From: Branchiostoma lanceolatum
Taxonomy: Eukaryota; Chordata; Leptocardii; Amphioxiformes; Branchiostomatidae
Length of the DNA stretch: 64,000 bases
Assembly: GCF_035083965.1 (NCBI RefSeq)
Contig: NC_089736.1
Coordinates: forward strand, 3,767,001-3,831,000
Direction: 5' to 3'
Position 1 is the first letter of the stretch. Each line of letters begins with the position of its first letter. A program made the position numbers and the translations under genes. Of this stretch, positions 35,401 through 40,154 are shown in pieces. The notes under the pieces are model-generated. The model saw nothing but the letters and a program-made list of their open reading frames with translations, did not search any database and was not told the origin of the DNA.

Positions 35401-38400
35401 TTAATTGCAAGAAAGAAAAAAGAAAGACAACGTCTTGTTGGACCGTTGGACAGGAAGTTTGCTGGACATGTCCAGTCTAGAATGTGGCACACATTATCCA
35501 AGCTGTGGCCCCAATTATGACAAAACATACACAGCTGTTACCCATTCCTTTGATCTTCCTCTTATATGGGTTGAATTGGCTCCAAACTCATCTGCATACG
35601 AATGCATATGGAAGTCCTGATTAGGTTCTTCATTACTGCTGGCGTGAAAATGCTGATGATTACCTCTGTTGTTTTTGTTCGGAGTGGTCTTGAAATAATC
35701 ATGTTGGGTACAGACAAACGGTTATTCTGATACTGTGTAAAAAAAATCGCAAGATGAAAATTGAGTGTTCACGGTGGTTTAAGTTTATGGCAGTACTACT
35801 CTATACAGTAGTCACATACTGAGGAACAGTATTGGATACAAATGTTTGCGGTGGCTTTAAGTTTGCAGTGAAACAGTCGCTGCGAAACCAGCAGACATAA
35901 AACCACCGCGAATATTTCTGCATTTCCAGTAATGGGGAAGACGGCAGAAGAACTTCATGGTACTTTTTGTTTTAAGTCAGCGTAATCCTTATATTTCCTC
36001 CTGGATTTGGGCAGCTCGGAAAACCAGGAAAGCTCTTGACTCCATATGGAAATTGGCTACAGATACACACATTGTACATGCATTGTACATGATTTTTAGG
36101 ACTGTTGCAAAATGCTACAGTATTGCCTTATTGATTGGCATTCTTATGATTGGTCAACATATTGTACAGTAGAAAATAGAGAATAAAACAGAAACTTTCA
36201 ACATTTTTTATGCTCTTACAGTCCATAACAAGTAGACTTCATTTGTCAATTAACATCTTCAGTCTAAAGAAGGAAATCCTTTGTCTGTCTTCATTTGGGA
36301 GAACAATAGACTTATGAGACTATTATTGGTGTTCGCACATGTCCTTTGTTCAGTGAGTCGAGCTGGCCTGTTTTATGGTTCTGTTAATTTCAGAGGCTTG
36401 GGTGTTATGTCAAAGATTTGGCCCTATTAGGAGTATAGAATGATTTAGGAGACAAGGAAAAGAAGAGAGTGAAATGTACAAATATACAACTTACAGTTCA
36501 CAACTTTTCTACTTGAACTGTAATCCAATTTTCTATCCATGCTTTGCATGCCTTTTTACTGATCTCTTTTTTATGCATGCACACACACACTCACACACTC
36601 GGTCTCTCTCTCCCTTTTTGCATGCAAGACCCTCCAGAAGTCCATTGATGAAAAACAGCCCTGTCTTTCAGCCAAGTCAGACTGTCTTTCTAGCACTGAC
36701 CTTTCCCCAGTCCAGGGCAGGCACATGCCAAAGGCCTGTGTCATGATCTGTATGGAAAGGCCAGTAGACAGCTTTGAAGCTTCCAAGCACACCCATAGGA
36801 ATTTTTCTCAGTAATCATACTGATGTTGATTTGTAGTTGGAAAAACATTGACTTTTTCATGTCTCTAGTCTAGTTTCCAAGAAATGTGAATCTATCCTGT
36901 TGATGTTTCATATCTGAATAATAGAGTCAGCTAGATGACAGATACTCACAACCTGGTCTTACAGTTTCCCTTGTTGTTTGTAATGGGACATCCTATACAA
37001 GGATATAGGTGCATAATAAAGCTTGTTTTTTAACATAGACATTCTACAGTCAGATATACATTCCCACGACATGTGTGATACCAGTATAGAAAGTCGCAGT
37101 CTCCCAGAGACCATCAGACAACTAGATAAACCCATGATAAAGCCAGAAGGTCTGGCGTAGGCACCAAATACAGGCTGATGCTGTGCGCTTGGCAGGGAAT
37201 CAAGCTTTAGTTTCCCACTACAGGATTTCACTCTACTGATAAACCATTGACACAACTTTGTAGCACTCTGTGTGGCTTCAACTTATGCTATATTCAGATG
37301 AATGCATAACATAGTCTTTCAAAAGAATAGTATTGCATACAACAAACTAAAGCTTGCTATGTAGAAATATAGATACAGTCAAACCTGCTCAACAAGACCA
37401 CTCCGGGGACGGATAAAATCTGGTCTATGTGGACAGGTGGTCACTATAGACAGGATTCTTAATGCTTGTGTCAATGGGAAAATGTATCTAAGGGGCCACC
37501 AAAAAGTGGTCACATCGGCCAGGTGGTCCGTATGTATTTACATACTTAACTAGTACAGGTTTGACTGTACACCAGTGGTTGACTGAGAATGAAGCAAGTC
37601 GCCGAATCTAGAGGATGGAACAGAGTATAGCGAACTGTGGCTGCCTGCCAGGCGGTTCCTTTGAGGGGTCTTCTTACAATTCTTCAGGAGTGTGTCATCC
37701 ACTTTAATACAGGAAGGCTTCTATAGCCCTTAATACTACTCTCTTTTCATTGATAAGTTCAATGCCTTTGGCTAAGCAGCTAGGTCCTTGTGAGAGTCTA
37801 TTACATTGATCTTAAGTTGTGTTTTGTGTGTAAGGAGAAAGGTCATGAAGGACGTTTGTGTTCTGTTTTTACAGCAATCTGTGGTGCTAGTGCCGTATTC
37901 ACTAAACCCTAACATTGTTTAATCTTTATACCTTGATGTTTATACAGCAATGCTGCTGTAATGGTTTGCCGCTGTTTTAAACTTTAAGGGAAAATATCAT
38001 TTCAAACTGATGTTTTGCGGAACGTCAAGAAATGATTTTTCAGGCACTTATGATAGTATTCAGCAACCTTCACACCGTTATTTTGTTTTCAGTTGAAAGG
38101 TTCTTTGCAGCCAATATATAATGAAGAAGAAATGCAATTTTGTCTTCTTTTTTTGCAGTGTACAAAGAAAGACTGGTGCACAATCTTGTTCTTATGTAGA
38201 CAGAAAGAAAATGCTCGCAGAAACCAGCCCTTACAAATGATGTACAATATGTCAATGTTGACTCAAGTTGAAATCTTGTTGTGTTTTTGCAGGGCACAAG
38301 GAAAGAAGGGTGTTCATAATGTTAGTAGTCTTTGTAGGACATGGAAAAAGAAAGAAAAGGCTCGTTACAAACTATTGTATCTAAATTTGGAATCTTGTTT

Positions 38401-40154: not shown

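Follow-up and report, generated by a model that had tools for sequence, protein, structure and literature searches.

The window, as I call the whole 64 kb stretch of lancelet DNA analysed here, contains on its + strand a gene model of three exons, coding for a protein of 561 aa. The exons are as follows.

20424 to 21365, + strand: coding part of exon 1, encoding the Fz domain and the first portion of the membrane region, with donor CAG/GTAAAC; Pfam matches to Fz (E 7.2e-35) and Frizzled (E 3.2e-28).
38412 to 38520, + strand: working exon 2, 109 nt, phase 0 to 1, colinear with human FZD7.
39520 to 40154, + strand: exon 3, ending at the stop codon; Pfam match to Frizzled (E 1.2e-85).

The first 12 residues encoded by exon 2 are identical in human FZD7, and the best PDB matches of the model are human FZD7 (829.9 bits) and FZD1 (817.5 bits), with FZD3 far lower (558.6 bits). 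Possessing an Fz domain and a Frizzled membrane region, and with FZD7/FZD1 as its nearest PDB proteins by similarity scores rather than by a tree, the predicted protein is a Frizzled receptor of the Fzd1/2/7 group.

Two pseudo-acceptors, each a pyrimidine tract and CAG followed by an exon-2-like start, precede the working exon 2. They lie where the original prediction had placed them, with the AG of copy A ending at 38158, that of copy B at 38292, and exon 2 running from 38412. The elements of this region are the following.

38133 to 38193, + strand: copy A, with a polypyrimidine tract and acceptor of ∼26 nt (AG at 38157-38158), then 33-35 nt of exon-2-like sequence; score 41, shuffle maximum 26.
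38194 to 38261, + strand: filler of the first unit, of which the first part (38194-38217) resembles 38341-38364 (83% over 24 nt).
38262 to 38344, + strand: copy B, with 31 nt of intron end including the acceptor (AG at 38291-38292) and exon-2-like sequence; score 57, shuffle maximum 29.
38381 to 38411, + strand: genuine 3' end of intron 1, including the exon 2 acceptor, the third member of the repeat, from the repeat search and local alignment.

The significance of the local alignments was assessed with dinucleotide shuffles, 1000 per comparison. The true boundary aligned to copy B with a score of 57 (shuffle mean 16.2, maximum 29) and to copy A with a score of 41 (mean 16.4, maximum 26), while exon 2 alone matched the intron over 30 nt at 38162-38191, within copy A, with a score of 30 (mean 15.6, maximum 25). 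No shuffle out of 1000 reached the observed score in any of these comparisons, so that in self-alignment both boundary matches exceed shuffled sequence throughout. That the likeness merely reflects pyrimidine tracts and AGs recurring by chance in an intron rich in AT is therefore scarcely credible: such tracts with an AG are common, and the one ahead of the copy A acceptor, taken alone (38133-38158), matches at p 0.07, but the exon-only match has p<=0.001 and the whole-boundary matches stand above all 1000 shuffles. Chance resemblance was rejected on this shuffle test of the boundary alignments.

Aligned without gaps over 51 nt, the true boundary and copy B are 82% identical, and copies A and B are 63% alike. 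Intron end, AG and exon start are common to all three members in a single register, the exon-like part starting at 38159 in copy A and 38293 in copy B, and the true exon at 38412. The members are spaced 134 nt (A to B) and 119 nt (B to the true boundary) apart, and the repeat takes in 26-31 nt of the intron preceding each acceptor. The A and B fillers are alike over ∼30 nt (p 0.002), and intron sequence is therefore part of the repeat unit, in agreement with the proposed unit of 120-134 bp that includes intron. Several points speak against a tandem duplication of the boundary: the units are of unequal length (134 vs 119 nt), their fillers match only in part, A and B share no more than the 63% just given, and the array formed by A, B and exon 2 was not listed by Tandem Repeats Finder at score 30. 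The simplest tandem model also predicts a filler match before copy A, unless it has been eroded, and a comparison of the fillers with the sequence preceding copy A found none (p 0.71, 0.21).

How much of the exon was copied differs between the two. In copy A, the exon match is firm to 38191, or 33 nt. In copy B it spans 20 nt without a gap and is firm to 38312, possibly reaching 38344 with a 10-nt deletion; as had been claimed, this copy reads GTRKEGCS and then a stop, its exon-like part giving GTRKEGC before going out of frame. A MAFFT alignment suggested that copy B might continue colinearly past the 10-nt deletion as far as 38469, which lies 58 nt into exon 2, with p 0.011 against shuffles, 0.165 against 653 intron-1 segments, and 0.15 or 0.31 with stricter scoring. 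The earlier statement that only 35-45 nt of exon were copied thus describes copy A well, while for copy B it comes down to 20 ungapped nt and a continuation whose p ranges from 0.011 to 0.31.

This possible continuation bears on the idea that the region goes back to the duplication of an entire exon, for instance in a former mutually exclusive pair, with later decay of the 3' parts. It speaks for such a relic if judged by shuffles (p 0.011), but is not significant against the intron-1 segments (p 0.165) or by the stricter scoring (p 0.15). Moreover, the filler of A does not match the remainder of the exon (local p 0.53, global p 0.88), and the steps of 119-134 nt offer scant space for a 109-nt exon with its flanking intron. 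The B filler, from 38325, likewise has no match to the remainder of the exon (p 0.36), and I rejected the fillers as decayed exon 2 on these values for A and B. The copies also lack a donor of normal strength: none of the GTs within them is a normal one, the best scoring 3.4, compared to a mean of 7.3 and a minimum of 3.6 for 20 true donors. A separate exon is unlikely for this reason, and the copies were rejected as separate cassette exons. Copying of the whole exon with both acceptor and donor, which defines mutually exclusive exons, was not found here, the longer B copy standing at p 0.011-0.31. Overall, a whole-exon relic is quite unlikely.

The region is instead very probably a decayed "mirage", as tandem duplications that resemble minisatellites and span an intron/exon boundary are called. 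The end of intron 1, comprising at least 26-31 nt along with its polypyrimidine tract and AG, and the start of exon 2 would have been duplicated in tandem, either twice or into a longer array that has since eroded, with slippage or unequal exchange as the likely mutational step, as in minisatellites. The original prediction had offered exon duplication or local slippage as possible origins, which is largely correct for a boundary duplicated in tandem; the link to the mirages published for amphioxus had been missed. The homology, the geometry and the broken reading frames of the copies are directly visible. The repeat unit crosses the intron/exon boundary (best spanning alignment score 57), the extra copies are on the intron side, with the working boundary joined to the full exon, and the steps of 134 and 119 nt fall within the unit length reported for mirages (10 to ∼160 bp). 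Compared with what is expected of a minisatellite-like array, there are two extra copies, with 63-82% identity.

In exon definition, the choice of an acceptor is made jointly with the downstream donor. The last copy would have stayed in use because the remainder of exon 2 and its donor sit only behind it, and splicing was probably held on the last acceptor in this way. The upstream copies would then have become intron, and would now be drifting unspliced. For copies of a donor, exon definition would conversely hold splicing on the first donor, the one joined to the full exon.

With a weight matrix built from the 20 true acceptors of the window (leave-one-out mean 7.2, minimum 1.0), copy A scores 10.0, the true acceptor 9.1 and copy B 5.0, and of 1047 AGs between 22000 and 38000 of intron 1, only 0.67% score at least as high as copy A. 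Since the copy A acceptor is as strong as the true one, a difference in strength could not by itself prevent the spliceosome from using it, and it may see leaky use in competition with the true site. The predicted outcome is a product of 440 aa with a frameshifted tail if acceptor A is used, and of 322 aa if acceptor B is used, instead of 561 aa.

Such products could be functional if A or B were alternative acceptors spliced in some tissues, yielding either a truncated Frizzled, consisting of the cysteine-rich domain and the first membrane helices, or else a transcript destined for decay, by which receptor dose is tuned. The score of copy A, its rarity among intron-1 AGs, a frame open for ∼125 codons and the absence of any second-codon-position difference to exon 2 over 36 nt are in line with this. 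On the other hand, the products are frameshifted or stopped, and normal splicing past such copies is reported or inferred for other genes in the available portions of two studies (PMC3087553, PMC3902484). Both outcomes, truncated receptor and dose tuning, are unlikely.

In a three-way comparison of A, B and exon 2, which covers 20 nt, two changes are special to exon 2, both synonymous; four are special to copy A (three amino-acid changes and one synonymous), and one, which changes an amino acid, to copy B. The numbers are small, and the pattern fits a constrained exon with decaying copies. Over 36 nt, copy A differs from exon 2 at four first, no second and six third codon positions; the lack of second-position differences is a possible hint of former constraint, again with small numbers, and synonymous drift of the exon may contribute to it. 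Both copies have the appearance of near-neutral relics.

Lancelets are highly polymorphic, and divergent haplotypes, or misassembled repeat reads, might have been stacked in tandem by the assembly. In the part of the globin study available, one mirage is described as wrongly assembled in a genome draft (PMC3087553). However, with members 63-82% alike and different fillers, the Frizzled repeat has diverged further than reads from a single allele would if stacked together, and for PGBD5 the available text reports resequencing that spoke against an artefact (PMC3902484). An assembly artefact is highly improbable here.

A second repeat is found in the next intron of the gene.

39231 to 39519, + strand: 58-nt tandem array in intron 2, reaching the exon 3 acceptor; from the repeat searches.

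The array has one longer member, of 84 nt, and is in register towards the acceptor. Within it, AAATTTGGACATGAA is similar to AAATGGGGACATGAA in exon 3, with p 0.046 in a test on the exon alone. An in-register test of the extension into exon 3, devised after the match was seen, gave p 0.033 against 2441 coding 26-mers, 0.025 against 3000 shuffles and 0.074 against 6572 genomic 26-mers. The array unit may therefore include the start of exon 3, which would make it a second Frizzled mirage; because the in-register test was post hoc, I do not claim this.

I then scanned the window for local duplications, using 1588 segments, of which 44 scored >=32, several being simple repeats or overlapping. Two further repeat pairs cross exon boundaries, in two other genes.

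2804 to 3033, - strand: 118-nt tandem duplication at an acceptor of a SETD2-like gene, score 121 (true exon 2822-2668).
45666 to 45901, - strand: duplicated donor of exon 3 of a LIPT2-like gene, 168-nt step, score 76 (true exon 45995-45865).

In the SETD2-like gene, the copy is exon-like from 2940, 19 nt of exon were copied and the AG is kept in both members, with acceptor scores of 2.5 for the copy and 7.4 for the true site. The gene has a SET domain (50.5 bits) and an AWS match below its cut-off (19.7 bits vs 23.3); its name rests also on the sequence of human SETD2. In the LIPT2-like gene, identified by Pfam LplA-B_cat matches in three frames (25.0, 38.7 and 50.3 bits; cut-off 27), the copied donor has its GT at 45696, in the downstream intron, with 68 nt aligned, and the copy (GTAAGA) scores 11.1 against 10.2 for the true donor. 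Judged by their sequences, both cases are fresher than the Frizzled one, and that of the SETD2-like gene is a putative fresh mirage. Stops would enter the transcript if any of the four copy sites (A, B, SETD2-like, LIPT2-like) were used.

Other features of the window were also noted. Between the true and copied donors of the LIPT2-like gene lies a stretch that by eye resembles a tRNA-derived SINE (GGTTCGAATCCC); a search of the window against Rfam (gathering thresholds) and with ARAGORN gave no matches, this stretch included. A repeat pair with a 180-nt step (5363-5585, - strand, score 51) begins 11 nt into the intron that follows SETD2-like exon h, and another (score 32) lies 32 nt into the one that follows LIPT2-like exon 2; neither is spanning. 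Away from the modelled exons are local duplications at 43214-43507, 35206-35497 and 30841-31122 (steps of 135-151, 195-199 and 226 nt, respectively). A 36-nt tandem pair at 58654-58726 of the window is 100% identical. A large inverted repeat at ∼70-450, identified by eye beyond the last modelled SETD2-like exon, is probably a foldback element. Six other ORFs of the window matched no Pfam family at E 0.1.

The original prediction had also raised a process that favours the splice site. I surveyed 40 predicted splice boundaries, hand-annotated from splice signals, frames and domain hits, all 40 of which pass the AG/GT check. Of acceptors and donors alike, 15 come from the SETD2-like gene, three from the LIPT2-like gene and two from Frizzled. 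A spanning copy (score >=35) was found at 3 of the 40, with at least one spanning duplication in each of the three modelled genes. Exon 3 of Frizzled was counted as not spanned, its best alignment (score 49) stopping 11 nt short of the junction, and the non-spanning pairs after SETD2-like exon h and LIPT2-like exon 2 were left uncounted.

Among the controls, a spanning copy is present at 0.85% of 4000 points drawn at random from sequence that lies 150 nt or more away from exons and excludes three stretches of simple repeats. The proportion is 1.75% for 4056 points in the SETD2/LIPT2 introns, 1.77% for 11870 points in the Frizzled introns, a set that includes the arrays discussed here, and 0.58% for 16472 intergenic points; these intron and intergenic points were taken every 3 nt, and neighbours are not independent. 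Under a binomial model, 3 or more hits among 40 boundaries have P 0.005 if the background rate is 0.85%, and P 0.046 if it is 2%; without the Frizzled starting case, 2 or more among 39 have P 0.04 to 0.18. An enrichment of boundaries for spanning duplications over control points is therefore no more than suggested, and likewise a preference for splice sites (3/40 boundaries vs 0.6-1.8% of control points); without the given case, the enrichment is weak or not significant.

It is possible, though on balance doubtful, that such duplications hit a noticeable share of splice boundaries through a local process favouring exon edges, with exon definition hiding them and leaving a pool of ready acceptors and donors. 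If so, new introns and isoforms could draw on this standing pool. Every case offers a natural experiment in how the splicing machinery selects among two or three nearly equal sites, and such duplications may represent an early stage of intron or isoform gain. Since an older, decaying case lies beside two fresher ones within 64 kb, a genome-wide survey could measure their birth, decay and boundary preference. The literature search, which mostly left out subscription journals, found among the papers listed no Frizzled boundary duplication and no genome-wide survey of mirages.

Intron gain by tandem genomic duplication has been reported, in the part of the study available, for the potato RdRp gene (PMC4974935). 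The Frizzled case shares with it a tandem duplication within a gene, but its copies sit inside an existing intron and no new intron is seen. Mirages themselves have been described in amphioxus for Adh3, troponin C, the globins and PGBD5 (PMC3087553, PMC3902484). In Adh3 and troponin C, tandem repeats spanning a boundary reportedly do not disturb splicing (PMC3087553, PMC3902484), and the Frizzled repeat spans a boundary as well; the Adh3 units, which reportedly show somatic instability, are shorter (10-72 bp, as cited in PMC3087553) than the 119-134 nt found here. Lancelet PGBD5 carries imperfect tandem repeats of 60 and 108 bp that overlap or abut splice sites, close to the unit lengths in the window (the 58-nt array and the steps of 118-134 nt). 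Their numbers differ between two assemblies (PMC3902484), whereas the Frizzled case is known here from a single sequence.

The globin mirages resemble the cases of the window in make-up (PMC3087553). The BflGb6 mirage consists of an intron end, an acceptor and the 5' part of an exon, as do the tandem copies in Frizzled, and BflGb9 shows copied 3' boundaries of exons, as does the LIPT2-like gene with its donor. Many of the globin copies keep their AG/GT signals, and RT-PCR results together with the Adh3 data suggest normal splicing past mirages (PMC3087553). The BflGb6 units, of 150-160 bp, are 81-100% identical and number 6 and 3 between haplotypes (PMC3087553), in contrast to the two extra Frizzled copies, 63-82% alike and with eroded filler. 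In composition, position and unit length, the Frizzled copies fit the mirages, as decayed examples of them, and taken alone, the case is a relic of an already described kind.
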